Positions 20,417 to 50,060 of a stretch of 64,000 nt of DNA are shown here, in pieces. Origin of the DNA: Myxococcota bacterium (GTDB lineage Bacteria > Myxococcota_A > UBA9160 > SMWR01); NCBI GenBank assembly GCA_039030075.1, contig JBCCEW010000012.1, positions 1 through 64,000 on the forward strand, read 5' to 3'. Within the stretch, counting starts at the first letter, position 1, and the number at the start of each line of letters is the position of its first letter. The position numbers and the translations under genes were made by a program. The notes beneath the pieces are model-generated. The model did no database searches. It had not been told where the DNA came from and was given only the letters and a program-made list of their open reading frames with translations.

Positions 20417-21586
20417 ATGAGCCAGAAGCTCTTCGAGAAGTACAAGGTGATCGACATCGACACCCACATCACCGAGCCCGCCGACGTGTGGACGGCGCGG
20501 GTCCCGAGCAAGTGGGGCGACAGGGTTCCTCACATCAAGCAGATCGAAGGCCGCGACATGTGGTTCATCGGGGATCAGCCGGCGGGAGGGCCTGGCTTCG
20601 TCACGATGGCGGGCCACACGGGCACCTTCCCCGACGTCCCGCATGGCTACCACGACATCCCGGCCGCTTCCTACGACGCCAAGGCCCGCCTGCAGCTGAT
20701 GGACGAAGAGGACATCTACGCCATGGTCCTCTACCCGAACCTCGGCGGCTTCGGGTCGGGGGGGTTCCTCAAGCTCGGCGAGCCGGACCTGATGCTCGCG
20801 TGTGTGCAGGCCTACAACGACTTCCTGGTCGATTGGTGCAGTGAAGACCTGAACCGGCTGCTGCCCGTGATGGCGCTGCCCTTCTGGGACGTCGATGCCT
20901 CGGTGAAGGAGATCGAGCGCTGCGCGGCGAAGCGACACCGCGCCGTGCTCTTCGGGAGCCGGCCGGAGACCTTCGGCGAGCCGCCGCTCGCCCACAAACA
21001 CTGGGATCCGATCTGGGCGGCGACCCAGGATGCGGGGCTGCCGATCAGCTTCCACATCGGTTCCGGCGATCTCAGCGAGATCGTGAACGACTCGGCCGAC
21101 ATGGGGGCGAAGGCGAACTTCTCCCGCGGTGGCTCGCTGGCGCTGCTCGACAACCAGAACTGCCTCGCCAACCTGCTCTTCGGCGGGGTCTGCGCGCGCT
21201 TCCCGAAGCTCGACTTCGTGTCGGTCGAGAGCGGTGTGGGCTGGCTGCAGTGCGTGCTCGAGATGTTCGACTGGCAGTGGGTGAACGGCGACGTCGTGAA
21301 GGAGCACCCCGAGTACGATCTGTTGCCGTCGGAGTACTTCAAGCGCCAGGTCTACGGTTCGTTCTGGTTCGAGCGCCGGGGCATCGACGCCGCCATCGAG
21401 GCCTTCCCCGACAACCTGATGTGGGAGACCGATTACCCCCACCCGACGTGTCAGTACCCGAGCCCCAACAGCTCGGCCGAGCGGCCGTCGGACTACGCCG
21501 AGGCCGCACTGGCCAACGTGCCCGAGGCGACCACCCGAAAGATCCTGCAGGACACTCCGGCGCGCCTCTACGGCGTCGAGCTCTAG
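20417..21586 (+). CDS. Metal-dependent amidohydrolase (ACMSD-like, amidohydrolase_2)
   Basis: 389 aa, TIM-barrel. Metal ligands of the ACMSD-type decarboxylase/hydrolase family are visible: D15-T-H17-I-T-E20 after the first strand, H213 in SFHIGSGD and D339 in ETDYPHPT. Relatives decarboxylate or hydrolyse aromatic or keto acids such as 2-amino-3-carboxymuconate semialdehyde and gamma-resorcylate. AAGGAA precedes the ATG. A strong hairpin follows the stop. The substrate is unknown. Confidence 0.87.
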   Translation: MSQKLFEKYKVIDIDTHITEPADVWTARVPSKWGDRVPHIKQIEGRDMWFIGDQPAGGPGFVTMAGHTGTFPDVPHGYHDIPAASYDAKARLQLMDEEDIYAMVLYPNLGGFGSGGFLKLGEPDLMLACVQAYNDFLVDWCSEDLNRLLPVMALPFWDVDASVKEIERCAAKRHRAVLFGSRPETFGEPPLAHKHWDPIWAATQDAGLPISFHIGSGDLSEIVNDSADMGAKANFSRGGSLALLDNQNCLANLLFGGVCARFPKLDFVSVESGVGWLQCVLEMFDWQWVNGDVVKEHPEYDLLPSEYFKRQVYGSFWFERRGIDAAIEAFPDNLMWETDYPHPTCQYPSPNSSAERPSDYAEAALANVPEATTRKILQDTPARLYGVEL

Positions 21587-25073: not shown

Positions 25074-26033
25074 ATGGATTTCGCCCCGCCCATCGCGATC
25101 GACGGCCTGCTCGAGGATCCGAGCGCGGTTCGGGAGCTGCTCGAACGGCACGCCCCCTACGCGCCGGTGCAGCGCTACCTGCGCAGCGATGCCGAGTACC
25201 GCAACGCCAGCGGTTCGGGGGCGGCTCAGCAGATCATCGCTCCGAACTTCCGCGGCGACTGGGCCTTCGAAGGGCGTGTCGAACCCGGTGCCGAACTCTT
25301 CCTCGAGCACCCCACGCTGGTCGACGCGGCCGCCCGACTCTTCGAGAGCGACCTGGTCCGTCCCTTCGCCGTCTTCAGCAACATCACCTGGCAGCTGCCC
25401 TTCTCACAGGGCGGCGGGCACACGGACGTGCCGGCCTTCCGCGGGATCGACCGCCGCGAGTACCCCACCTGGTTGCTCGGCACGATGGGCCATTCGCGCC
25501 TCTTCGAGTCCGAGCGCATCCGCATCGCGACGGCCGTGGCCTGGTTCTACGCCGGGCCGGACGGCGGCTTCGAGTACTGGCCCGACGGACCGGAAGCGGC
25601 GTCGGTGCTGCACGAAGGCGCGATCGCGAACACGGCGATCATGGGCGACAACGACTTCATGTATCACCGCGTGCGGCCGGTGGGCCGCCGCGAGGACGGC
25701 TTCCCGGGCGGGCTCTCCCTCGACTCGCGGCTCGAGCACACGGGAGGCGACGACTGGCGGATCGTCGACGGCGACCGCGTCATCGCGACGCCGGGTTTCG
25801 ACGCGCTGCGCGTGAGCGTCTCGTGGAAGGCCTACGTCTTCCGTGACGAAGACGAGCGCGATCGTGTCGACGCTGGAACCGACGCCCTGACGATCGACGC
25901 AGTCTGGCAGCGCTTCTACACCGATCTCGATGCGCGCAGCGTGGCGTTCGAGCGCCCGGACGCGCCGCTCGACGATGCCGCCTTCATCGATCTCCTGTCG
26001 CGCACCTACATGCGCGCACCCCAGAACGTCTAG
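25074..26033 (+). CDS. Putative 2-oxoglutarate/Fe(II)-type oxygenase
   Basis: 319 aa. The sequence carries a plausible double-stranded beta-helix iron site: H116-T-D118 (GGGHTDVP), a distal H198 (FMYHRVRP) and an Arg/Ser motif R246-x-S (LRVSVSW) at the 2-oxoglutarate position. The order and spacing (~80 and ~48 residues) fit 2OG-Fe(II) dioxygenases, but overall family similarity is not obvious to me. GGGAG precedes the ATG at 25074. Its stop overlaps the GTG of the next gene by one base, so the two proteins are made together. Confidence 0.6.
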   Translation: MDFAPPIAIDGLLEDPSAVRELLERHAPYAPVQRYLRSDAEYRNASGSGAAQQIIAPNFRGDWAFEGRVEPGAELFLEHPTLVDAAARLFESDLVRPFAVFSNITWQLPFSQGGGHTDVPAFRGIDRREYPTWLLGTMGHSRLFESERIRIATAVAWFYAGPDGGFEYWPDGPEAASVLHEGAIANTAIMGDNDFMYHRVRPVGRREDGFPGGLSLDSRLEHTGGDDWRIVDGDRVIATPGFDALRVSVSWKAYVFRDEDERDRVDAGTDALTIDAVWQRFYTDLDARSVAFERPDAPLDDAAFIDLLSRTYMRAPQNV

Positions 26034-26863
26034 TGCGCGCCCGACTTCCCGACATCGACTTTCGCGACGCCGACGGGTTCTGGCTGCCGAGCTGGCCCGA
26101 GTTCACCCACCGTATGAACGGGGCCTCGCTGCTGCTCCCGTACCTCGAGCCCTACCTGATCCGCGTGATGAAGCTCGCGCGGTCGCGGCTCGAGAGCGTG
26201 GCCCCCGCGCTCCTCGCGGACGTCGACCTCTTCAACCGCCAGGAAGCGAACCACTACAAGGTGCACGCGCGCTACAACGCGGAGCTGCGCGCGCAGTACC
26301 CCGGGCTCGAGCCCTTCGAGGCCGAGATCAAGGCCGACTTCCAGCGCTTCCTCGCCGAAGAGCCGCTCGAGTGGAACCTCGCCTACTCCGAGGGATTCGA
26401 GTCGGTCGGGCTCATCATGTCCGAGTTCTTCCTGCAGGAGATCCCGGACGCCCTCGAAGACGCCGATCCGGCGGTGCGGGAGCTCTGGGCCTGGCATCTG
26501 GCCGAGGAGTTCGAACATCGCTCGGTGGTGCACGACGTACTCGCCGCCGTCGCGCCGGGGTGGGTCCGCCGCCTCCAGGGCTTCCGCTTCTTCGGTCAGC
26601 ACCTCTACGCCTTCACGGCCCGCGTCTGCGAACACATGACCCAGATCGACCGCGAGCGCGGTCGACTGCGAGACGACGATCCCCGCGTCCAGGCCAGCGC
26701 GAAGCGCTACGCCCGCCGGGAGTCGCGCTTCTATGCCGTGCGCACCGCGCAGCTGCTCACCCCCTGGTACCGCCCCCACGGCCGGCCTCTGCAGGCGCCG
26801 ACCCGGCGGGTGCTGGAGTCGTACCCGCAGGCGCAGAGTCCGCGTGTCGCCGGCGGCGGGTGA
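26033..26863 (+). CDS. PF10118-type ferritin-like 'metal-dependent hydrolase'
   Basis: 276 aa, helical. The diiron-like set is visible: E39 (PYLEPY), E71-x-x-H74 (RQEANHY), E120/E123 (YSEGFES) and EEFEH (158-162). The family is annotated as a predicted metal-dependent hydrolase, but the motifs look like a ferritin-like diiron carboxylate protein; the reaction is unknown. The start is GTG, overlapping the preceding stop (TAGTG). A paralogue lies at 46822-47706. Confidence 0.8.
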   Translation: MRARLPDIDFRDADGFWLPSWPEFTHRMNGASLLLPYLEPYLIRVMKLARSRLESVAPALLADVDLFNRQEANHYKVHARYNAELRAQYPGLEPFEAEIKADFQRFLAEEPLEWNLAYSEGFESVGLIMSEFFLQEIPDALEDADPAVRELWAWHLAEEFEHRSVVHDVLAAVAPGWVRRLQGFRFFGQHLYAFTARVCEHMTQIDRERGRLRDDDPRVQASAKRYARRESRFYAVRTAQLLTPWYRPHGRPLQAPTRRVLESYPQAQSPRVAGGG

Positions 26864-26888: not shown

Positions 26889-27251
26889 ATGAAGTTCGAT
26901 CTCGGAGTGCACCACGTTTCACTGAACGTCGACGATCTCGACGCGTGTCTCTCCTTCTACGTCGACACGCTCGGCTTGACCCCGATCGAACGCCCGGATC
27001 TCGGGTTCCCCGGAGCCTGGCTCGCGTTCGGCCCCCAGGAGCTGCACTTGCTCCAGGTCGAAGATCACCAGGCGCCGGACGGGCAGCATTTCGCATTCCG
27101 GGTGACCGACCTGGACGCCACCCTCGCCGCGCTCGACGCCGCGGGGGTGAAGGCCACACCGCCCTTCGAGATCCCGGGGGTGTGTCGGCAAGCCTTCCTG
27201 AAGGACCCGGCTGGCAACCTGCTCGAGCTGAACGAGCCGAAGTCCCGATAG
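26889..27251 (+). CDS. Small VOC-family (glyoxalase-like) protein
   Basis: 120 aa, a single VOC module that would dimerise to form its site. Metal ligands are likely H9 (GVHHVSLN), H68 (GQHFAFRV) and E115 (NLLELNE). GAGGAAGG lies upstream of the ATG. The gene follows the PF10118 gene by 25 bp on the same strand, so it is likely third in that operon. Function could be isomerisation, lactoylglutathione-lyase-like chemistry or ligand sequestration. Confidence 0.82.
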   Translation: MKFDLGVHHVSLNVDDLDACLSFYVDTLGLTPIERPDLGFPGAWLAFGPQELHLLQVEDHQAPDGQHFAFRVTDLDATLAALDAAGVKATPPFEIPGVCRQAFLKDPAGNLLELNEPKSR

Positions 27252-27320: not shown

Positions 27321-28085
27321 TTGACGCCCGAGATCGCGCTCCTGCTCGTGGCCGGGGGGGCCTTCGCGGGCTTCGTCAACACCCTCGCCGGCGGCGGTTC
27401 CTTCCTGACCGTGCCGCTGCTCGTGCTGGCGGGGCTTCCGGCCACCGATGCAAACGCCACCAATCGGGTGGGCGTGCTGGCGGCGAGCGCGTCGGCGCTG
27501 TGGGGCTTCAAGCGAGAACAGGTTGGCGGCCTGCAGCACACGCTGCCGATGATCTTGTCGGTGCTCGCCGGTTCCTGGCTGGGGGCCTACGCCGCGAGCG
27601 TCGTCTCCGATGCGCTCTTCGAGCGGGCCTTCGGGTTCGTCATGCTGCTCGCGCTCCCGCTGCTGCTGCGCAACCCGAAGCCCGAGGGCGAGGGGCATCG
27701 CGTCGGTTGGGCCGCGCAGCTCCTCTACTTCGCCGTCGGCTTCTACGGCGGCGCGATCCAGGCGGGGATCGGGATACCGCTGCTGCTCGTGCTGGTCGGC
27801 GTGGCGGGCTTCGACCTCGTGCGTGCGAATCACATCAAGATGGCGCTCGTCGGCGCGCTCACGATCGTTGCGCTCGCCCAGTTCATCTGGGCGGGGAAGG
27901 TGTGGTGGGCCTACGGGCTCGCTCTCGCGGTCGGCAACAGCGTCGGTGCGCAGCTCGCCGCGCGCTGGGGCTCTCGCGTCGGGCCTCGCTTGATCCGCCC
28001 CGTGCTCGTCGCCTGTGTCGTCCTCCTGGCCGCGCGCATGATCCTCGGTGGCGGAGCGCTCGCCTTCGGAGGATCGGGCGCCTGA
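27321..28085 (+). CDS. TauE/SafE-family sulfite/anion exporter
   Basis: 254 aa, TTG start. Eight or so hydrophobic helices form two repeats; each half has the family's Gly/Pro-rich turn (GGGSFLTVPLLVLAGLP near 24-40 and GGAIQAGIGIPLLLVL near 146-161). Members export sulfite, sulfoacetate or related anions across the inner membrane. No RBS is evident, so the start is uncertain. The neighbouring genes do not indicate the substrate. Confidence 0.85.
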   Translation: MTPEIALLLVAGGAFAGFVNTLAGGGSFLTVPLLVLAGLPATDANATNRVGVLAASASALWGFKREQVGGLQHTLPMILSVLAGSWLGAYAASVVSDALFERAFGFVMLLALPLLLRNPKPEGEGHRVGWAAQLLYFAVGFYGGAIQAGIGIPLLLVLVGVAGFDLVRANHIKMALVGALTIVALAQFIWAGKVWWAYGLALAVGNSVGAQLAARWGSRVGPRLIRPVLVACVVLLAARMILGGGALAFGGSGA

Positions 28086-32242: not shown

Positions 32243-34189
32243 GTGCGGATTTCGGCACACTCTCGCCGGTCCCAGCGAAGTGAGGGCGTCGTTCACGCGA
32301 AGCAGTGTTTCGATTACGCTGACGCCGTGGATGCCGCACCGGGGCCGCTCAGCGAGCAGATGGCACTGTCGTTCGACGGGCAGGCGTCCCCTGCGATCGC
32401 GCTCCGCGGAGAGGTCGAGCACCAGGCGAACCTGCTGCCTTCGAGCTGGGGACTCGGGTGGTACCCGGAGAACCAACGCGCCGCATCCGTGCTTCGGGAT
32501 TCCGACCTTCCCCAGGCCACGCCGCTCTCGGCGTTCCTTCACCGACGGGGCGATGCGCGCTCCAGCCTCTTCCTCGGGCACACCCGGGGTCTCCAGCCTC
32601 GTGGGGAACGCGGCAGCGCGCAGCCCTTCGCCAAGTCCTACGCCGGTCGCCAATGGCTCTTCTCGTGCGCGGGCGACCTTGCGCCCCACCTGAAGACGGC
32701 CCTTTCGCTGGACGACTCCTTCGACATCGCGCCGGTCGGCTCGACGCCGGTAGAGCACGCGTTCAGTTGGGTCGTGGCCCAACTCCGTCGGAAGACCGCA
32801 CGGACCATCGACGAGTTCGGTTGGATCGAGATGCACGGGCTGCTGCGGCGGCTCAACGAGTTCGGGGCGGCGAGCTTTCTGCTCACCGATGGTGTCGACC
32901 TGCTTGCGTATCGGGACGCGGAGGATGCGGTCCCGCTCTACTGGACCCGTCGGATTCCGCCTCACGACGTGACCTCCCTCGAGGGTCGCTCCTTCTCGAT
33001 CACCTACGATGATCCGACGGACGTCTCGCGCACGCTCCTGGCGTTCTCGACCTTGCCGATGCGGGGCGCCGCCTGGAATCCGCTCGAGACGAGTGAGCTG
33101 CGCGTGGTACGCCGGGGCGTTTCGGTATGGAGCAGTCATCCCGCCGGCATGGAAGAGCAGGTGTTTGCGCTCGCTCCGCATCGCCACACGAGCCCGGCCG
33201 AGCCCGAGGTCATGCACGCGACGGCATCCCAGCAGCAGGGCGCGGCGGCGCCGGTGCTGGCCGCGGGGATCACGCCCGACTTCGCGAACCTCACGGTCCG
33301 GCACGAGACGATCTACCGCTACGACCAGCCCATCGAGCGCAGCTCCCACCGCTTCTGCCTGCGACCGGTCGAAGACGAGCGACAGAAGGTGCTCGACCAT
33401 TCACTCGAGATCTCGATCGACGGGATGCAGCGAGACTTCGAAGACGTGTTCGGAAACCGCGCCACGATCTTCGAGGTGACGACACCCTTCCAGGAGATGC
33501 GAATCGTCTCGCGGTCGGCCGTGCGCGTCGAGGGGGTGCTCGCGTCGCGGCTGAAGTCGCCGCTGCGCCGTGACCAGATCCCTCTGGTCTGGATGCCGTG
33601 GCAGCGTCAGATGATGCAGGCGTATTTGATGCCGCCCGAGCTGCCGGAGCTCGAGCTGCGTGAACTCTCGGAGTTCGCGATGAGCTTCGTGGAGCGTTGC
33701 GACCACGACCTCGTAGAGACGCTCCTCGACCTGAATCGAACCATCTATCGCGACTTCGGCTACCTGCCGGGCTCGACCACGGTAGAGACCACGCCCTTCC
33801 AGGCCTATGTCCAGCGCCGCGGCGTGTGTCAGGATTTCGCGAACGTACTGATCTGCGTCGCGCGCCTCCTCGGCGTTCCCGCCCGCTACCGCGTCGGCTA
33901 CATCTACACGGGCGGCAGCTACGAGAACAAGATCCAGTCCGACGCCTCCCACGCCTGGGTCGAGGTCTATCTGCCGTGGACGGGATGGTTCGGCTTCGAC
34001 CCGACGAACGGGTGCCTCGTCGGTGCCGATCACGTGCGCGTCGCCTGCGGGCGACAGTTTCGCGACGCGGCGCCGACCTCGGGCACGATCTACCGCGGAG
34101 GGGGTTTCGAGACCCTGGAGGTGGGGGTGCAGGTCGAGCGACTCACCGACGACGAGCTCGGAGAGCGCGGAATCATCCTTCCCAGCTAG
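32243..34189 (+). CDS. Degenerate class-II amidotransferase domain fused to transglutaminase
   Basis: 648 aa from a GTG; in-frame GTG 32327 and ATG 32360 are alternative starts. Residues ~36-310 match the class-II glutamine amidotransferase (YafJ-like Ntn) fold: SWGLGWYPE (68-76), HTRG (113-116), then AQPF and FSCAGDL where active enzymes have THPF and 'HNG'. The N-terminal Cys nucleophile is absent: the aligned position is Ser36, preceded by a non-start codon. Residues ~345-648 are a bacterial transglutaminase with the intact triad C529, H570, D586. Tail-to-tail overlap with the Anbu gene. Likely a cysteine peptidase or amide-transfer enzyme carrying a non-catalytic or differently processed Ntn domain. 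Confidence 0.82.
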   Translation: MRISAHSRRSQRSEGVVHAKQCFDYADAVDAAPGPLSEQMALSFDGQASPAIALRGEVEHQANLLPSSWGLGWYPENQRAASVLRDSDLPQATPLSAFLHRRGDARSSLFLGHTRGLQPRGERGSAQPFAKSYAGRQWLFSCAGDLAPHLKTALSLDDSFDIAPVGSTPVEHAFSWVVAQLRRKTARTIDEFGWIEMHGLLRRLNEFGAASFLLTDGVDLLAYRDAEDAVPLYWTRRIPPHDVTSLEGRSFSITYDDPTDVSRTLLAFSTLPMRGAAWNPLETSELRVVRRGVSVWSSHPAGMEEQVFALAPHRHTSPAEPEVMHATASQQQGAAAPVLAAGITPDFANLTVRHETIYRYDQPIERSSHRFCLRPVEDERQKVLDHSLEISIDGMQRDFEDVFGNRATIFEVTTPFQEMRIVSRSAVRVEGVLASRLKSPLRRDQIPLVWMPWQRQMMQAYLMPPELPELELRELSEFAMSFVERCDHDLVETLLDLNRTIYRDFGYLPGSTTVETTPFQAYVQRRGVCQDFANVLICVARLLGVPARYRVGYIYTGGSYENKIQSDASHAWVEVYLPWTGWFGFDPTNGCLVGADHVRVACGRQFRDAAPTSGTIYRGGGFETLEVGVQVERLTDDELGERGIILPS

Positions 34190-34983
34190 CTGGGCTGCTC
34201 CGGGTTCGGCACGAAGTTCGCGCTGGGATCCATCGGTGGGGCTGTGCTGGGGAGCGGCGCGGGAAAGGCGGGGAGCTTCGCGAAGCTCTCGGCGAAGCCC
34301 CGTTGCCAGGCCTCGCGGACCTCGTGGTAGTAGGGCGAATCGGACTCGATCCGAAACGGCGTCGGCGGTGCGAAGTGGTCCGTCGGGTAGAGCGCGAAGT
34401 CGAATGGCGCCGCTACCGTGATGTTCGAGCGCACGGTGGCATCCATCGAAACCAACGCGAGCTTCGCTGCCTCCGATAGGGGCAGCGACTTGCGGACCAG
34501 CCGATCGAGCACGGGCTTCCCGTACTTCGTCTCGCCGATCTGGAGATAGGGAGTCTCGTCCGAGACTCCGATGTAGTTGCCCTGCGGGTAGATGAGGCGC
34601 AGCTCCGGTGGACCTCCTCGGATCTGGCCTCCGAGAATCAGGGTGACCTCGCCGGTCACGCCACTGCGAGCGAGCGCGGCACCGTGTTTCTCCTGGATCT
34701 CGCGGGACAGGCGACCCACGTACTCGGCGGCCTCGAAGACGCGACCGGCTGTCGAGAGGGAGGCGCCGTTCGGGGGGAACGCGAGGTCTCGCTCGATTCG
34801 ATCGATGAGCTCGCGCGTGGTCGCGAGACTGCCCGCGGCGAGCAACACGAACGAGCGATCCTGGGCCGGCGCGAAGACATGGAGCTTGCGATAGCTCGTG
34901 ACGTAGTCGACGCCGGCGTTCGTCCGTGTGTCCGCTCCGAATACGATGCCCTCGTCCACCTGGATCGCGACGCAGTAGGTCAT
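34186..34983 (-). CDS. Anbu proteasome-like Ntn hydrolase
   Basis: 265 aa, slightly longer than typical Anbu (~240-260). MTYC start: after Met removal Thr1 is the predicted nucleophile, with D17 (FGADTRTNAG) and a Lys at 32-33 (SYRKLHVF), the proteasome/HslV catalytic set. Anbu forms open helical or ring assemblies and is linked by comparative genomics to transglutaminases and amidoligases. The start ATG overlaps the stop of the transglutaminase/DUF2126 gene (ATGA). A Pro-rich C-terminal tail (about 240-265) is an extra feature. Its cellular substrate is unknown. Confidence 0.88.
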   Translation of the reverse strand: MTYCVAIQVDEGIVFGADTRTNAGVDYVTSYRKLHVFAPAQDRSFVLLAAGSLATTRELIDRIERDLAFPPNGASLSTAGRVFEAAEYVGRLSREIQEKHGAALARSGVTGEVTLILGGQIRGGPPELRLIYPQGNYIGVSDETPYLQIGETKYGKPVLDRLVRKSLPLSEAAKLALVSMDATVRSNITVAAPFDFALYPTDHFAPPTPFRIESDSPYYHEVREAWQRGFAESFAKLPAFPAPLPSTAPPMDPSANFVPNPEQPS

Positions 34984-37900
34984 CGGGGCCCGCCGCCCGT
35001 GGTGCTGGCCCAGCGGAGGTCCAGGATGTGGGGGAAGTGCGGGTGGGGGCGCAAGGGAATCGGGTCGAACGCGCCCTGTTGGTGGCCCCGGGCTTCGAAG
35101 CGCGCCAACCGGCGGCTCTCTGCCGCGGGGGCATTCACCGGACGTACTTCGGAAGCGCGCCCGCCCGGGTGCACGACGTGGTAGGTGCAACCGGCGACGT
35201 TTCGTCGATTCCACGTGTCGTAGAGATCCACGTGCAGGGGCGAGTGCACCCCGATGCGCGGGTGAAGACAGTGGGGTGGTTGCCAAGCGCGATAGCGCAC
35301 ACCGGCGATGAACTCACCGTTCGTCGCCGTCGGTTGCATCGGCACCTCGAAGCCGTTGCACAGGACCTTGTAGCGCTCCTCGACGAACCCGTACGCCTTC
35401 ACCTGAATGCGCTCGACCGACGAGTCGACGTAGCGCGCTTGTCCGCCGGCTGCCGATTCCTCCCCGAGGACGTGCCAGGGTTCGAGGGCTCCGCGCACTT
35501 CGAGGCGCGTGGAATCGAGGGCCACCTCGCCGAAGCGAGGAAATCGGAATTCGAAGTGCGGGGCGAACCAATCAGGGTCCAGGTCGAAACCCGCGGCTCG
35601 GAGCTCTTCGAAGACCTCTCGGAGATCGCTTTCGACCCAGTGGGGCATCATGAACTGGTCGTGCAGGGCGGTTCGCCATTTGATCAGCGGACGCTCGTCT
35701 GGGCTGCGCCAGAACTTCGCGAGCAGCGAGCGTACGAGCAGCTGTTGGACGGCGCTCATGCGCTCGTGGGGCGGCATCTCGAACGCGCGGAGCTCGACGA
35801 GGCCGAGCCTTCCCGTCGGACCCTCCGGCGAGTAGAGCTTGTCGATGCAGAACTCGGCTCGGTGGGTGTTTCCCGTGACGTCGATGAGCACGTTCCGCAG
35901 GACGCGATCGACGAGCCAAGGCGCGACCGGCAGCTCGTCCTTGCGCGGAAGCTGGGCCAGCGCGAGCTCGAGTTCGTAGGCCGAATCGTCGCGTGCCTCG
36001 TCGACACGGGGTGCCTGGGAGGTAGGACCGATGAACCTGCCGCTGAAGAGGAAGGAGAGGGAGGGGTGGTTGTGCCAGAAGCGGAGGAAGCTCCCGAGGA
36101 CGTCCGGGCGTCGGAGGAAGGGACTGTCGGCGGGCGTCAGACCGCCGAGCACGACGTGGTTGCCCCCGCCCGATCCAATGTGGGTGCCATCGACCTCGAA
36201 CTTCTCCGCGATGAGCTTCTCGTGACGCGCCGCTTCGTAGAGCTCCTCGCTCTGACGCACGGCACCTCGCCAAGAGGTCGTCGGTGGGACGTTCACCTCG
36301 ATCACCCCTGGGTCGGGCGTGATCCTGAACTCTCCGAGCCGGGGGTCGCGCGGAGGCGGGTAGCCTTCGAGCTGAACCGGAAGATCGAATTCGGCGGAAG
36401 TGTCCTCGATGGCCGCGATCAGCTCGATGAAGGGCTCGACGCGAGTGAGCGGCGGCAAGAAGACCTTGAGCTGGCCGCCCCGCGGCTCGACACAGAGCGC
36501 GCTGCGCACGATTCCGGGGGCCGACTCGAACGGGAGTGGCGGTGAAGCGCGCAAGCCTTCCGTCGCCGCATCCGTGCCGGTGAGACCCGAGCGGCGCTCC
36601 TGGAGTCGGGGCGACGTCTCGGCGAAGCGCCCAGGCTCGCCGAAGGGACGCGGCAGGGCAGGTCGCGGGGCGTACGGATCGAGGTCGCTGGAAAGCGGGA
36701 GGTCGCCTGGCGCCGCCCAGGGCTGGGACTCGAGCGGCAACCGGAATCCCATCGGCGAGTCCCCCGGGATCAGGTAACAGCGCTCCGAGCGCAGGAACCA
36801 CTCACCGGTTTGCCACGCGCCGACATGCTCGAGGGGGAGCACCCAGCCCACGATCGAGGCGAGTCCCTGCTCGAAGATGCGCGCGAGTCGCGCGCGCTCG
36901 ATCGGATCCTCGAGCTTCGAGTCGTGGGGGTCGACGTTGGTTGGGAGGCGACGCTCGCGCCAGAGGTGATACCAGGCGTCCTCGTATGCATCGATCCAGC
37001 GGTACTCCCGCAAACCGAGGCGTTGCGCGAGCCGATCGCCGAAGCGGGCCGCGTCGTCGACATCGTGCCCGTAGCTCCGGCCCGACTCGGCGAGGCGCGA
37101 CGGATCGCGCCACAGCGGGTACCCGTCGTTGCGGTAGTAGCATCCGTAGGCCCAGCGCGGCAGCTGCTCCCCCGGGTACCACTTTCCCTGCCCGTGTTGG
37201 ACAACGCCGCCCGGTGCCCAGAGCTGCATCAGGCGTCGCGTGAGGCGATCCGCGATCTCCGCCTTTCGACCGCCGAGTGCCTCCGTGTTCCATTCAGGCG
37301 CATCCGGTTCCTCGGAACTCACGAAGGTCGGCTCACCGCCGACACTCAACCGGACGTCATCGTGGGCAAGCTCCGCGTCGATCCGATCCCCGAGTTCGAG
37401 GATCCGCTGCCATCCTTCGTCGGTATAGGGCTTCGTGATCCGCGCATGGTCCACTACGCGCTGGACGTGCATGTCGAACTCGAACTCGGTCTCGACTTCC
37501 TCGACCACCCCCGACACGGGAGCCGCCGAAGACGGGTTCGGCGTCGCCGCGAGCGGAATGTGTCCTTCCGCGGCCAACAGCCCGGAGGTGGGGTCGAGTC
37601 CGACCCAGCCCGCGCCGGGAATGAAGCACTCGCACCAGGCGTGCAGGTCGGTGAAGTCGCGCTCGGGGCCAGGCGGTCCTTCGAGGGGCTTCTGGTCCGG
37701 CTTGAGTTGGATCAGGTAGCCCGAGACGAAGCGGGCGGCGATGCCCATGCGCCGAAGCACCTGGACCAGGAGCCAGGCCGAGTCGCGGCAGGAGCCGCGT
37801 CCGAGCTGCAGCGTCTCGTCGGGCGTCTGCACGCCGGGCTCCATCCGGATGACGTAGTCGACGGCAGCGGAGACCGCGCGGTTCGTTTCGACGAGCAGAT

Positions 37901-38327
37901 CGTTGGTTTCGCGCGCGGTCCAGTCGAGCCCCTCGACGAACGCGGCAAGAGCGGGGGACGCGGGGAGCGTCACGAGGTAGGGCTCGAGGTCGGATCGCCA
38001 TTCCTTGTCGTAGACGAAGGGCCACTCGCGAACCGACTCTTCGAGGAAGTAGTCGAAGGGGCTGTAGGCCTCGAGGTCGACGACCAGATCCACCGAGACC
38101 TCGAAGCGCTCGATCTTCTCGGGGTAGACCACCCGCGCGAGATAGTTGCCGTGCACGTCCTGTTGCCAGTTCAGGTAGTGCCCGTCGGGTCGGACGTCGA
38201 GGCTGTAGCGATGGACCGGCGTTCGGTTGTGCGGGGCGGGGCGGAGCCGAATCGTCTGCGGCCCGAGTTGCACCGGGCGCGCGTAGCCGTAGCTCGTGCG
38301 GTGATGGAGGGCGACGCGAATGGCCAA
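34980..38327 (-). CDS. Transglutaminase fused to DUF2126 putative amidoligase (COG4196)
   Basis: 1115 aa, the usual size for this family. Residues 1-~110 are the bacterial transglutaminase N-domain, followed by the transglutaminase core with C180 (GRGSCRDSA), H229 (LHAWCE) and D245 (GLDPTSG). Residues ~320-1115 correspond to DUF2126, described in Pfam as a putative amidoligase (recalled). Start: TTG 38327, giving the family N-terminus MAIRVALHHRTSYGY, with AGAGGA upstream. Translationally coupled to Anbu. Plausibly the enzyme forms and/or breaks peptide or isopeptide bonds on a small peptide-like product. Confidence 0.85.
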   Translation of the reverse strand: MAIRVALHHRTSYGYARPVQLGPQTIRLRPAPHNRTPVHRYSLDVRPDGHYLNWQQDVHGNYLARVVYPEKIERFEVSVDLVVDLEAYSPFDYFLEESVREWPFVYDKEWRSDLEPYLVTLPASPALAAFVEGLDWTARETNDLLVETNRAVSAAVDYVIRMEPGVQTPDETLQLGRGSCRDSAWLLVQVLRRMGIAARFVSGYLIQLKPDQKPLEGPPGPERDFTDLHAWCECFIPGAGWVGLDPTSGLLAAEGHIPLAATPNPSSAAPVSGVVEEVETEFEFDMHVQRVVDHARITKPYTDEGWQRILELGDRIDAELAHDDVRLSVGGEPTFVSSEEPDAPEWNTEALGGRKAEIADRLTRRLMQLWAPGGVVQHGQGKWYPGEQLPRWAYGCYYRNDGYPLWRDPSRLAESGRSYGHDVDDAARFGDRLAQRLGLREYRWIDAYEDAWYHLWRERRLPTNVDPHDSKLEDPIERARLARIFEQGLASIVGWVLPLEHVGAWQTGEWFLRSERCYLIPGDSPMGFRLPLESQPWAAPGDLPLSSDLDPYAPRPALPRPFGEPGRFAETSPRLQERRSGLTGTDAATEGLRASPPLPFESAPGIVRSALCVEPRGGQLKVFLPPLTRVEPFIELIAAIEDTSAEFDLPVQLEGYPPPRDPRLGEFRITPDPGVIEVNVPPTTSWRGAVRQSEELYEAARHEKLIAEKFEVDGTHIGSGGGNHVVLGGLTPADSPFLRRPDVLGSFLRFWHNHPSLSFLFSGRFIGPTSQAPRVDEARDDSAYELELALAQLPRKDELPVAPWLVDRVLRNVLIDVTGNTHRAEFCIDKLYSPEGPTGRLGLVELRAFEMPPHERMSAVQQLLVRSLLAKFWRSPDERPLIKWRTALHDQFMMPHWVESDLREVFEELRAAGFDLDPDWFAPHFEFRFPRFGEVALDSTRLEVRGALEPWHVLGEESAAGGQARYVDSSVERIQVKAYGFVEERYKVLCNGFEVPMQPTATNGEFIAGVRYRAWQPPHCLHPRIGVHSPLHVDLYDTWNRRNVAGCTYHVVHPGGRASEVRPVNAPAAESRRLARFEARGHQQGAFDPIPLRPHPHFPHILDLRWASTTGGGPR

Positions 38328-46207: not shown

Positions 46208-46825
46208 ATGCCGCGTCCCGCCATGCCCGCCGAAGCCGTCGCCGCCACCCGCGCGGCGCTCCTCGACGTCGCCGAGTCGCTCTACGAGGCGGGCGGGCAC
46301 GAGGCCATGTCGTTTCGCGCGATCGCCTCGGCCTACGGCTGCAGCAACACGATGCCCTACTCGTACTTCGATTCGAAGGCGGCCATCGTCGACGCGCTGC
46401 GGATTCGCGCGTACCGCTGGATGCAAGGCGTCCTCGAGAAAGCGGTGGTGTCGACTCCCGACGCCTTGGAAGCGCTTGGCGCGCTCGCGCGGGCCTACGT
46501 CGCGGCCGCAGCCGAGCGCCCGCGCATGTACGAGCTCCTGTACTCGTCGCACGGCGCGATTCGCGAGACCGACCCGGCGTTGGTCGAGGCGAAGCTCGGA
46601 GCGTTGTCGGTGTGTCGCCGGGTCATCGAGGCCGTTGCCGAGGAGTCCGAGTGGGCACTGCGCGCGAACCCGGAAACCACCGCCCACCTGTTCTGGGTGG
46701 CGGCCCATGGACTCGTGTCTCTCGAGGAGGGCGGCTTCCTCGTGTTGGGACCCCGCATCGACGAACTCTTGCCCGTGCTGTTCACGGCGCTGTCCGTCGG
46801 CATGGTGGAGCAGAAGGACGCATGA
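46208..46825 (+). CDS. TetR/AcrR-family regulator
   Basis: 205 aa. HTH at about 34-57 (MSFRAIASAYGCSNTMPYSYF region). A ligand-binding helical domain follows (TetR_C-like, 'RPRMYELLY...'). The promoter reads directly into the ATG, so the transcript may be leaderless. The stop overlaps the ATG of the PF10118 gene (ATGA). It probably represses the divergent acyl-CoA dehydrogenase and its own operon (PF10118 protein and alcohol dehydrogenase), in response to an acyl-CoA or alcohol-type ligand (inference). Confidence 0.88.
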   Translation: MPRPAMPAEAVAATRAALLDVAESLYEAGGHEAMSFRAIASAYGCSNTMPYSYFDSKAAIVDALRIRAYRWMQGVLEKAVVSTPDALEALGALARAYVAAAAERPRMYELLYSSHGAIRETDPALVEAKLGALSVCRRVIEAVAEESEWALRANPETTAHLFWVAAHGLVSLEEGGFLVLGPRIDELLPVLFTALSVGMVEQKDA

Positions 46826-47706
46826 GCGAGCTGCCTCGAGAGGGCGACATCGTCGTTCGCCAGATTCCCTTCGCCTTCCCGGACGATCTCGATCCGCTCT
46901 GGAGTTCGCACCACGAGTGGTCTCACATGGTGAACGGGACTTCGCTCACCATGCCCTACCTGGAGCCCTTCCTGATCGCGACCTTGAAGGAAGGGATCGA
47001 GCTCACCGACGACCCCGCTGTGAAGAGAGAAGCACGCGGTTTCATGGCCCAGGAGGCCCAGCACTACAAGACCCACCGGCGCTACAACGAGCTGCTGAAG
47101 GCCCATGGCTACCCCGAACTGGCCGAGATCGAGGTGGCGATGGAACGCAGCTACGACCGGTTGCGGAAGCGCTCGCTCACCTACCGCCTCGCCTACGCCT
47201 GCGGGTTCGAGACGATGACGCTGGGTGTCACCAACTGGCTGATCTCGGATCGAAAGGCGCTCTTCGGCGGCACCGACACCCGCGTCGCCTCCTTCATCCT
47301 GTGGCACTTCGTCGAGGAGGCCGAGCACAAGCGCGCAGCCTTCGACGTCTACCAGGCGGTGCGCGGGCAGTACTGGCCGCGGCTGCTGGGGGTGTTCACG
47401 GGTTCGTTCCACGTGCTCTGGTGGGCGCGGAAGGGCACCGTCGCGATGCTGAAGGCCGACGGGCGCTGGCACGACTGGCGATCGCGTCTGCGGCTGTGGC
47501 GGCGTACGGCCGACTTCTTCCGCGCGGCGCTCCCGGTCATCCTGCGCAGCGCGAGTCCCTGGCACGATCCGCGCAACGAACCCGATCCGCCGTGGGTGCG
47601 CGACTGGATCGCCGGCTATGCGGCCGCAGATCCGGGCCGCGCTCCGCTGCTCGATACCGACGATCCCGAACTCCCCATCCCGTTCGCGATGAAAGGAGCC
47701 GCATGA
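46822..47706 (+). CDS. PF10118-type ferritin-like protein (second copy)
   Basis: 294 aa, paralogue of the protein at 26033-26863. Diiron-type residues: E48 (PYLEPF), E78-x-x-H81 (QEAQHY), E130 (CGFET) and EEAEH (165-169). Residues ~180-294 are an extra positively charged region. Both ends overlap neighbours by 4 bp (TetR before, alcohol dehydrogenase after), so a tightly coupled three-gene operon. The biochemical role of the family is unknown; context suggests a part in alcohol or acyl metabolism. Confidence 0.82.
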   Translation: MSELPREGDIVVRQIPFAFPDDLDPLWSSHHEWSHMVNGTSLTMPYLEPFLIATLKEGIELTDDPAVKREARGFMAQEAQHYKTHRRYNELLKAHGYPELAEIEVAMERSYDRLRKRSLTYRLAYACGFETMTLGVTNWLISDRKALFGGTDTRVASFILWHFVEEAEHKRAAFDVYQAVRGQYWPRLLGVFTGSFHVLWWARKGTVAMLKADGRWHDWRSRLRLWRRTADFFRAALPVILRSASPWHDPRNEPDPPWVRDWIAGYAAADPGRAPLLDTDDPELPIPFAMKGAA

Positions 47707-48716
47707 AGGCCCTCAAGCTCTCGGCGCCCCGGGGTGCCGTTTCCCTCGAAGACGTGGCCAAGCCCACGCCCGGCGCGGGCGAAGTGCTGATCCAGGTCGA
47801 GGCCTCCGGGCTGTGTTACACGGACGTCCACCTCTGCGACGGCGACTGGGCCCTCGTCGAGGACGTCATGAAGCGCGATCTCACCCTCGGCCACGAGGCG
47901 ATCGGGGTGATCGAGGCCATCGGCCCGGGCGTCACCGAGCGCACGGTCGGAGAGCGCGTCGCGGCGCCCTTTCTGCGGGCCGCCTGCGGGACCTGCAAAC
48001 AGTGTCGCCGCGGCGAGGAGAACCACTGCCCCGGCGCGACGACCCTCGGCATGACCCACGACGGTTCCCACGCGGAGTACGTCGTGGCGGTCGCAGACTT
48101 CGTGGTCCCGGTCCCCGACGGTGTGGCGCCCGAACAGGCGGCGCCGCTGGCGTGCGCCGGCATGAGCGTGCTCGGCGCGCTCCGCAACGCGGGCGTCGGC
48201 GTGGGCACCGGGCTCGGTGTGATCGGTGTGGGCGGCCAGGGCCACTTCGCGATCCAACTCGGCAAGGCGATGGGGGCGACGGTCGTGGCGATGGACCTCG
48301 ACCCGGAGAAGGTGGAGTTGGCGACGAAGCTCGGCGCCGATCGCGCCCTGTGCGTGTCCGACGCCGCCTTGCTGCCCGAACTCATGGGGTTGGGACTCGA
48401 CGTCGTGGTCGTCACGGCGCCCTCCCACGAAGCCCACGCCCTGGCGCTCGCCGTCGCCGGGCATGGCGGCACGATCTCGCTGTGCGCGGTGCCGGGGGGC
48501 GAGACCCCGATCTCGATGACCGCCTGTGCCTTCAAGGGGCTGAAGCTCCTGACCCAGGCGGTGGCCACGCGTCAGGAGCTGACCGACATCCTGGAGCTCG
48601 CGGCGCAGGGCAAGATCGAATCCCACGTCGAGACGCGCCCGCTGGAACGCGGCCCCGAAGCGATCGCCCAGCTGCGCGACCGCGGCGTCGTGGGCCGCAT
48701 CGTGTTGGTGCCCTGA
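47703..48716 (+). CDS. Zinc-dependent alcohol dehydrogenase (MDR family)
   Basis: 337 aa. Catalytic zinc ligands C38, H64/E65 and C151; structural zinc Cys95/98/101/109 (CGTCKQCRRGEENHC); NAD-binding GVGGQG at 175-180. It oxidises a primary or secondary alcohol with NAD(P)+. Start ATG overlaps the preceding stop by 4 bp. Last gene of the TetR operon; together with the ferritin-like protein it may form an oxidation step for a specific alcohol. Confidence 0.88.
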   Translation: MKALKLSAPRGAVSLEDVAKPTPGAGEVLIQVEASGLCYTDVHLCDGDWALVEDVMKRDLTLGHEAIGVIEAIGPGVTERTVGERVAAPFLRAACGTCKQCRRGEENHCPGATTLGMTHDGSHAEYVVAVADFVVPVPDGVAPEQAAPLACAGMSVLGALRNAGVGVGTGLGVIGVGGQGHFAIQLGKAMGATVVAMDLDPEKVELATKLGADRALCVSDAALLPELMGLGLDVVVVTAPSHEAHALALAVAGHGGTISLCAVPGGETPISMTACAFKGLKLLTQAVATRQELTDILELAAQGKIESHVETRPLERGPEAIAQLRDRGVVGRIVLVP

Positions 48717-48763
48717 GCGACCGGACATCGCGGGAGCCGCCGCCGGTCGCGTAGAATGCGCCC

Positions 48764-49396
48764 ATGGACGGGATCCACGACCTCGGCGGCATGGTGGGCT
48801 TCGGCGCCATCGATCCGGAGGGCGACGAGCCCACCTTTCATGCGCCCTGGGAGGCCACGGCGTTTCGCATCAACGTTGCCGCGATCGCGCTGTTGCGGGC
48901 CTACAACACCGACGAGTACCGCCACGCGATCGAACGCATGGAGCCGGTGCACTACCTCCAGGCGCGCTACTACGAGCGCGTGCTGACGGGGGCGACCAGC
49001 CTGCTGGTCGAGAAGGGCGTCCTCGACCACGCCGATCTCGAGCGGCGCGCCGGGGGACGTTTTCCCCTGGCGCTGCCGGTGCACGCCAACGCAGACGAGG
49101 GACGGTCCGAGCCCGCGGCTCCGCGGTTCGCCGTGGGGGACGGGGTGATCGTGCGCCGCGACCACAAGCCCGGGCACACGCGCGCGCCGCGCTACGTCCG
49201 AGGACAGCCGGGCGTCGTGGTCCACGTCGCGCCGGCGTTTTGGTATCCCGACGCCAGTGCGCACGGGCTCCCCGGTCGACGCGAGCCCACCTATCACGTC
49301 GAGTTCGAAGCCACGGCACTCTGGGGCGACGCGGCCGAGCCCGATGCCCCGGTCGTCGTGGATCTGTGGGAGAGCTATCTGGAGCCCCGGTCATGA
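48764..49396 (+). CDS. nthB: Nitrile hydratase beta subunit
   Basis: 210 aa. The N-terminus MDGIHDLGGMVGFG and RHAIERM (around 53-59) are typical of beta subunits; the C-terminal SH3-like domain starts around 'FAVGDGVIVRRDHKPGHTRA' and ends in the acidic 'DLWESYLEPRS'. Beta subunits pair with the alpha chain to form the metal site for hydration of nitriles to amides. Order beta-alpha is that of cobalt-type operons. The stop lies within the repeat array before the alpha gene. Confidence 0.88.
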   Translation: MDGIHDLGGMVGFGAIDPEGDEPTFHAPWEATAFRINVAAIALLRAYNTDEYRHAIERMEPVHYLQARYYERVLTGATSLLVEKGVLDHADLERRAGGRFPLALPVHANADEGRSEPAAPRFAVGDGVIVRRDHKPGHTRAPRYVRGQPGVVVHVAPAFWYPDASAHGLPGRREPTYHVEFEATALWGDAAEPDAPVVVDLWESYLEPRS

Positions 49397-49491
49397 AACG
49401 GGACCCCAATCGTGAGTTCGGAGTCCCCTTCGTGAGCTCCGAGTCCGGTACCTTGAATCGGGAGTCCGTGGCGTGAGTGAATCTCCGATCG
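49391..49491 (+). repeat. Imperfect ~20-bp tandem repeats between nthB and nthA
   Basis: Units of 20-21 bp begin near 49391, 49411, 49431, 49451 and 49472. The conserved core is (C)RTGAR-TCGGGAGTCC-like: TGAGTTCGGAGTCC, TGAGCTCCGAGTCC, TGAATCGGGAGTCC. The array spans the beta stop, the 76-bp gap and the alpha GTG start. The last clean unit supplies GGGAG, the alpha ribosome-binding site. Origin and function unknown. Confidence 0.6.
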
Positions 49492-50060
49492 CGAGCCCGA
49501 AAGCTCGGGCCGAAGCCGTCGTCCAGGCGCTGCGCGAGCAGGGGCAGCTCCCCGAAGGCGCCCTGGAAACCGTCGAGGCCATCGAGGAGCGCCTCGATTG
49601 GCACAACGGGGCGCGCGTCGTCGCGAAAGCGTGGACCGACCCGGGCTATCACGCCCGACTCCTCGCCGATGGAACCACCGCATGCGCGGAGCTCGGTTTC
49701 GAGGGGCCCCAGGGCGAGTACATCGTGGTGCTCGAAGACACGGACACCACGAAGAACGTGATCGTGTGCACCCAGTGCTCGTGCACCGCCTGGCCGGTGC
49801 TCGGCCTGCCCCCCGACTGGTACAAGCGCCCCGAGTACCGCGCGCGCGTGGTCCGCGAACCGCGCCGCGTGTTGCGCGAACTCGGGCTCGATCTCGCGCC
49901 CGAGATTCGGGTGCGCGTGTGGGACACCACCGCCGAGACACGTTTCCTCGTGTTGCCCCAGCGTCCGGCGGGTACGGAGAGCTGGAGCGAGGATGACCTC
50001 GCGGAGCTGGTGACGCGCGAATCGATGATCGGGATCGCGCGGGTGCCCGCGCCGGGCTGA
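49473..50060 (+). CDS. nthA: Nitrile hydratase alpha subunit, cobalt type
   Basis: 195 aa. The metal claw VCTQCSCT (98-105) has C99, C102 and C104; Thr at the second claw position marks the Co(III) class (Fe types have Ser). The usual Leu between Thr and Cys is Gln here. Other marks: AELGFEGPQ and 'PDWYKRPEYRARVVREPR' around 115-131. GTG start with GGGAG 8 nt upstream. No P14K/NhlE-type activator gene follows; the next gene is on the other strand. Confidence 0.9.
   Translation: MSESPIASPKARAEAVVQALREQGQLPEGALETVEAIEERLDWHNGARVVAKAWTDPGYHARLLADGTTACAELGFEGPQGEYIVVLEDTDTTKNVIVCTQCSCTAWPVLGLPPDWYKRPEYRARVVREPRRVLRELGLDLAPEIRVRVWDTTAETRFLVLPQRPAGTESWSEDDLAELVTRESMIGIARVPAPG

Follow-up and report, generated by a model that had tools for sequence, protein, structure and literature searches.

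P0001 and P0002, two genes sharing a single base in the stretch of 64,000 nucleotides analysed here (the window, part of contig C12 of the source genome, which belongs to an uncultured bacterium and amounts to 5.76 Mb in 55 contigs), probably encode two separate oxidative enzymes, which are probably catabolic and probably co-transcribed at this place without forming a conserved two-enzyme unit. Taken by itself, the gene pair is unremarkable. Notable by-products of its analysis are a testable reassignment of PF10118, whose invariant residues would indicate diiron O2 activation and not hydrolysis, and the delimitation of a 2OG-oxygenase family that has no name, which is also carried on sphingomonad plasmids under the label 'hypothetical protein'. 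Two families without an assigned reaction thus gain testable chemistry and, with four residues named in P0001 and seven in P0002, both are open to metal analysis and mutation.

As summarized in Table 1, the stop codon of P0001 and the start codon of P0002 overlap in the way that the original prediction had described, the G of TAG being also the G of GTG. The GTG start is backed by orthologues having Met at the equivalent residue (MRARLP.. in L052 and in L083, the latter being the same gene as L053). No Shine-Dalgarno-like stretch was seen by eye in the 25 bases 5' of this GTG, an absence that would fit a start by re-initiation. Because relatives of P0001 are found in 47, and relatives of P0002 in 54, of the 79 genomes of the order, both are conserved genes and not chance ORFs; a spurious overlap of frames was ruled out on the same ground, i.e. 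the many relatives of each. To judge from the overlap, co-transcription in the source genome is likely, and the two genes are probably coupled translationally. The start/stop overlap is nothing special in the window, since 9 of the 29 same-strand neighbour pairs delimited by a custom codon-based gene caller overlap there (eight by 4 bases and P0001-P0002 by 1).

Table 1. Features of the P0001-P0002 locus (columns: feature, positions in the window, strand, description)
P0001	25074..26033	+	319 aa, predicted 2OG-Fe(II) oxygenase fold, unnamed family; ATG 25074, TAG 26031-26033
H116-T-D118 codons	25419..25427	+	first two proposed iron ligands; invariant 56/56
H198 codon	25665..25667	+	third proposed iron ligand; invariant 56/56
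R246-V-S248 codons	25809..25817	+	proposed 2OG carboxylate anchor; R 56/56, S 44/56
TAGTG	26031..26035	+	P0001 stop / P0002 start, base 26033 common to both
P0002	26033..26863	+	276 aa, PF10118; GTG 26033, TGA 26861-26863
VOC/glyoxalase-fold protein	26889..27251	+	25 bases 3' of P0002; possibly on the P0001-P0002 transcript
TauE/SafE-type membrane protein	27321..28085	+	next gene after the VOC gene, same strand
Amidohydrolase_2 (PF04909) protein	20417..21586	+	homologues adjoin P0002 orthologues in L080, L081 and L083

The minus strand 5' of P0001 carries an SDR gene and another VOC gene, and further 5' come amidohydrolase, enoyl-CoA hydratase, acyl-CoA-dehydrogenase-like, sulfotransferase, SDR, EthD and SnoaL-like genes. 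By its predicted gene content, where SDR, acyl-CoA and VOC genes are abundant, the neighbourhood is of the catabolic type. Two other groups of overlapping genes were seen in the window. At 46208-50060, the genes for a TetR regulator, a second PF10118 protein (46822-47706) and a zinc-type alcohol dehydrogenase are linked by 4-base overlaps, and nitrile hydratase beta and alpha genes follow. At 34186-38327, on the minus strand, a 265-aa and a 1115-aa gene overlap by 4 bases; by eye, we take them to code for a protease of the proteasome type and a transglutaminase-like protein.

P0001 had been proposed to be a 2OG oxygenase with an H-x-D...H...R iron site, and this is borne out by its predicted fold and by the invariance of the residues concerned. 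Comparison of the AF2 model (mean pLDDT 90.4 and pTM 0.88, built from 15 sequences) with the PDB revealed the double-stranded beta-helix whose absence would have contradicted the proposal. At E <= 0.001, Foldseek matched 70 PDB chains to the model, with HIF prolyl hydroxylase, a prolyl hydroxylase from a bacterium and ALKBH2 at the top. The 50 matches listed have modest TM-scores (0.26-0.40 by query length); we take them to be 2OG-type oxygenases, plus one 'putative oxygenase'. With VIA, the best match was SnoN (Z 13.2, rmsd 3.3, 182 aligned), followed, among the matches listed, by OkaE (Z 12.5), PHD2 (12.0), AsqJ (11.9) and then AlkB. The H-x-D...H...R pattern corresponds to H116, D118, H198 and R246, which are invariant in 37 of 37 P0001 relatives and in all 56 proteins of a wider set; S248 and K252 are kept in 44 and 45 of these 56, respectively. 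The Arg or Lys that anchors 2OG often belongs to an R-x-S motif, and the distance from the distal His to the 2OG-binding Arg is usually of roughly ten residues in 2OG oxygenases. In P0001, R246 comes 48 residues past H198, and the model places three additional strands between them. A halogenase variant of the fold was ruled out because D118 is invariant; halogenases of this type are without the iron-binding Asp.

Sequence searches gave P0001 no family name: it matched none of the Pfam or NCBIfam families at E <= 1, none of the 15 members of its family alignment matched a Pfam 2OG family at E <= 5, and searches of the PDB sequences brought nothing usable (three local matches at E 0.07-0.8 for P0001, none for the family profile). 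From the predicted fold and the conserved residues, P0001 is probably a 2OG-Fe(II) oxygenase of an unnamed family. H116, D118 and H198 would bind its iron, and R246, together with S248, would bind 2OG. The reaction of O2 and 2OG would then give an Fe(IV)-oxo species, by which a small organic substrate would be oxidised, with release of succinate and CO2.

P0002 was described in the original prediction as a member of PF10118 having a diiron-type residue set. Membership is clear (146.6 bits, the cut-off being 33.2, residues 3-248 covering positions 2-239 of the 247 of the profile), and P0002 is one of four diverged PF10118 copies in the source genome. The expected set is present as seven candidate metal ligands, E39, E71xxH74, E123 and H155xxxE159xxH162, which are invariant in the 33 aligned PF10118 proteins, as are Q70, H78, W154, E158, E161 and R180; all these positions are also invariant in an alignment of 23 proteins. 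The model of P0002 is helical and weaker than that of P0001 (pLDDT 73.6, pTM 0.75); it was built from two sequences only, a scan of viral contigs with the PF10118 alignment having given no relative. All 50 matches listed for this model are R2, R2lox or sMMO diiron proteins, the best Z of 11.8 being below the 13 advised for helical bundles. Foldseek gave nothing significant (best E 0.43), AurF was absent among the matches listed by Foldseek and by the second structure comparison, and PDB sequence searches with P0002 and with the PF10118-family profile gave nothing usable.

Going by Pfam and by the annotation of records, P0002 should be a metal-dependent hydrolase: it is a near full-length member of PF10118 (Metal_hydrol), a family named 'predicted metal-dependent hydrolase', and plasmid annotations read 'metal-dependent hydrolase'. 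The name is however at odds with the invariant E/ExxH/E/HxxxExxH set, which is that of AurF-type oxygenases in the excerpts on these enzymes cited below, and with the match of the helical model to R2, R2lox and sMMO. Our search of the literature on PF10118/COG3687 found no tested hydrolase activity for the family and one passing mention, in an excerpt of PMC8960859, where PF10118 is placed in a group of proteases as a metal-dependent hydrolase. The terms sought were absent from the tomatine paper (PMC10653915), and PMC10724926 gave nothing useful on the motif. We consider a hydrolase very unlikely. The invariant residues and the model suggest that PF10118 proteins are probably, and more likely than hydrolases, diiron O2-activating oxygenases or oxidases, for which 'hydrolase' would be a misnomer.

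A helical bundle with ExxH motifs would also suit an iron-handling or peroxide-scavenging ferritin-like protein that oxidises no small molecule. Against it is the seven-residue AurF-type set of P0002 with its extra histidine, H155, from which the ligand set of rubrerythrin and ferritin differs; moreover, several diverged PF10118 copies per genome, four in the source genome, suit catabolic enzymes better. Such a role is unlikely. As a diiron oxygenase or oxidase, P0002 would be a ferritin-like protein activating O2 at two irons held by its seven AurF/CmlI-type ligands.

From the tandem arrangement, the original prediction had also drawn a joint oxidation step, and on this point the genomic comparisons went the other way. 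In a joint module, P0001 and P0002 would oxidise the same substrate successively, which would agree with the one-base overlap, with the translational coupling it makes possible and with the prediction that both are O2-activating iron proteins. However, in 132 records no place other than that of the window has the two families side by side. They are found together in seven of these records, of which four are the window place and three (L080, L081 and L082) have the two genes on one contig about 9-14 kb apart; the same seven had both families in an earlier set of 115 records. L080 and L081 seem to represent a single orthologous locus. In another genome, G061, the families share a contig at 16 kb. 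These looser associations speak in favour of a joint module. The other records comprise 80 P0001-family places, some of them one gene twice, with flanks on both sides of at least 1.4 kb for 68 and at least 5 kb for 20. Within the flanks examined (mostly 1.5 kb, some above 5 kb), no PF10118 gene lies less than 9 kb from any other P0001-family gene. Likewise, the window pair is the only P0001/PF10118 pair closer than 9 kb among the rows used of the order-wide lists (69 of 74 for P0001 and 95 of 107 for P0002, the weakest being left out). The closest P0001 relative, 81% identical, is without a PF10118 gene within 6 kb; the PF10118-type proteins of its genome (G039) are 28-38% identical to P0002, and the one encoded on the same contig is 58 kb away.

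The co-occurrence of orthologues was evaluated in the 79 genomes of the order. With a cut-off of 50% identity, P0001 orthologues are present in 11 genomes, P0002 orthologues in seven and both in one, as against 0.97 expected (about 1.06 if G019, set aside for a partial 50% match over residues 5-174 with a best match at 47%, is counted). A looser cut-off weakly favours a link, with both orthologues in four genomes versus 2.15 expected (p 0.13). A wider sample of the phylum adds a single genome with both, G196 (45% and 52%), in which they lie on separate contigs. PF10118 was absent from all five sphingomonad plasmids with P0001-family genes that were searched, a count that concerns plasmids only. 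Recurrence of the P0001-P0002 pair, as expected for a conserved two-gene oxidation module, was not observed in other genomes among the 132 records. Because the two families do not normally travel together in related genomes, a shared reaction is unlikely, and the likely co-transcription is no evidence of a joint step. Successive oxidation of one substrate by P0001 and P0002 thus appears quite unlikely. We also find very doubtful a fuller version in which PF10118 would be an uncharacterised AurF-like branch of diiron oxygenases/oxidases, P0001 would found a second oxygenase family, and both, on one transcript here, would oxidise the same compound sequentially. Two separate enzymes are the preferred reading, P0001 and P0002 most likely taking part in separate oxidation steps of the degradation of organic compounds.

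Their adjacency could have arisen by a rearrangement, compatible with two separate enzymes, in which P0001 landed between P0002 and the amidohydrolase gene that usually adjoins it, without any functional link. Among the five genomes with long flanks, the P0002 orthologue adjoins an amidohydrolase homologue and SDR-type genes in three (L080, L081 and L083), and neither type of gene is directly beside it in L084 and L085. In the window, P0001 and three minus-strand genes lie between the amidohydrolase gene and P0002. In addition, the nearest relative of P0001, with which it is joined at 100/100 in the tree, belongs to another family of the order, whereas the protein of a same-genus genome is only 58% identical; this phylogeny would suggest horizontal transfer or differential loss. 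We give the rearrangement, with the order of events that it supposes, a chance approaching, but short of, even.

P0001 relatives are present in 24 of the 377 genomes of the phylum (E <= 1e-60). The relatives that bear a name are MAGs, mostly titled Deltaproteobacteria or Myxococcota, and two are titled actinobacteria. The family is also found on 22 plasmid records (75 places) from Sphingobium, Novosphingobium, Embleya and Rhodococcus. The Sphingobium and Novosphingobium relatives (e.g. SARO_RS19430 on pNL2) share about 28-34% identity with most of the P0001 sequence and, save for one row of the source order, form a separate clade in the tree. Their gene is annotated 'hypothetical protein' in the five regions examined. 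In four of these it lies among SDR, NTF2-like, P450, acyl-CoA dehydrogenase, crotonase or flavin oxidoreductase genes, i.e. in a catabolic-type neighbourhood; in the fifth (RC1), it is surrounded mostly by transposases and hypothetical proteins. No literature on the N. aromaticivorans relative was found under the gene and protein names tried, most of which were guessed. The five plasmids have 2 to 5 P0001-family matches each, one of them a fragment, and two P0001-family genes stand in tandem on plasmid pMSHV of Sphingobium herbicidovorans (884900-887003).

In four genomes (L042, L043, L090 and L091, in the latter at L091:7874-9813), a second, different 2OG oxygenase is encoded directly 3' of the P0001 homologue; it was recognized by Pfam DIOX_N and 2OG-FeII_Oxy in L091 and by profile in the other three. 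A TauD-type oxygenase is near the homologue in L036 (from Pfam) and in L038 (from similarity). Since other oxygenases adjoin its homologues or lie near them, P0001 keeps company with oxidative enzymes generally. In two further loci, L088 and L089 (genomes G073 and G072), P0001 homologues have a cytochrome P450, a cyclase-like protein and an FAD protein in their vicinity; for the L089 copies searched, the latter is closest to 3-ketosteroid-delta-1-dehydrogenase models, below their cut-offs.

When set beside known systems, P0001 has in common with SnoN, OkaE, AsqJ and PHD2 the predicted double-stranded beta-helix (VIA Z 11.4-13.2 among the matches listed), in which it carries its H-x-D...H...R set. 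It differs from them by an identity of 8-14%, by the three extra strands that its model has between H198 and R246 and by the lack of a match to any Pfam 2OG family.

The comparison of P0002 with the AurF family (PF11583) rests on profiles and on ligand patterns. The PF11583 profile gives P0002 14.9 bits (E 0.015), below its cut-off of 29.6. Of the 79 genomes of the order, 71 have PF11583 matches at E <= 0.001, with a maximum of 12 in one genome; many of the matches exceed the cut-off only weakly. Ten PF11583 members of the source order have a ligand pattern like that of P0002, E164 and H192 being conserved at 90% or more and the other positions invariant. Alignment of PF10118 with the AurF family by hhalign scored 28.6 (P 0.0038, with a probability of only 8.8%), a value reached by none of 200 column shuffles (best 27.6) or 200 block shuffles (best 24.4); the controls, a reversed alignment and the P0001 alignment, scored 15.7 and 12.9. 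In the register obtained, E39, ExxH and HxxxExxH are paired, and E123 of P0002 is not paired with E164 of the AurF family.

The excerpt of PMC6783550 lists as AzoC ligands, from a model, Glu102, Glu137, His140, Glu198, His225, Glu229 and His232. The excerpt of PMC9478400 lists for DnfA Glu88, Glu123, His126, Glu182, His209, Glu213 and His216, said there to be identical to those of AurF and CmlI. Compared with AzoC as given in its excerpt, P0002 has a 71-123 stretch nine residues shorter and a 123-155 stretch five residues longer, and in place of the DEXXH motif it has Q70-E71 and E158-E159. The 3-His/4-carboxylate set E...ExxH...E...HxxxExxH of AurF, CmlI, AzoC and DnfA, as these excerpts present it, is matched in full by P0002 with a similar spacing (39-71-74-123-155-159-162).
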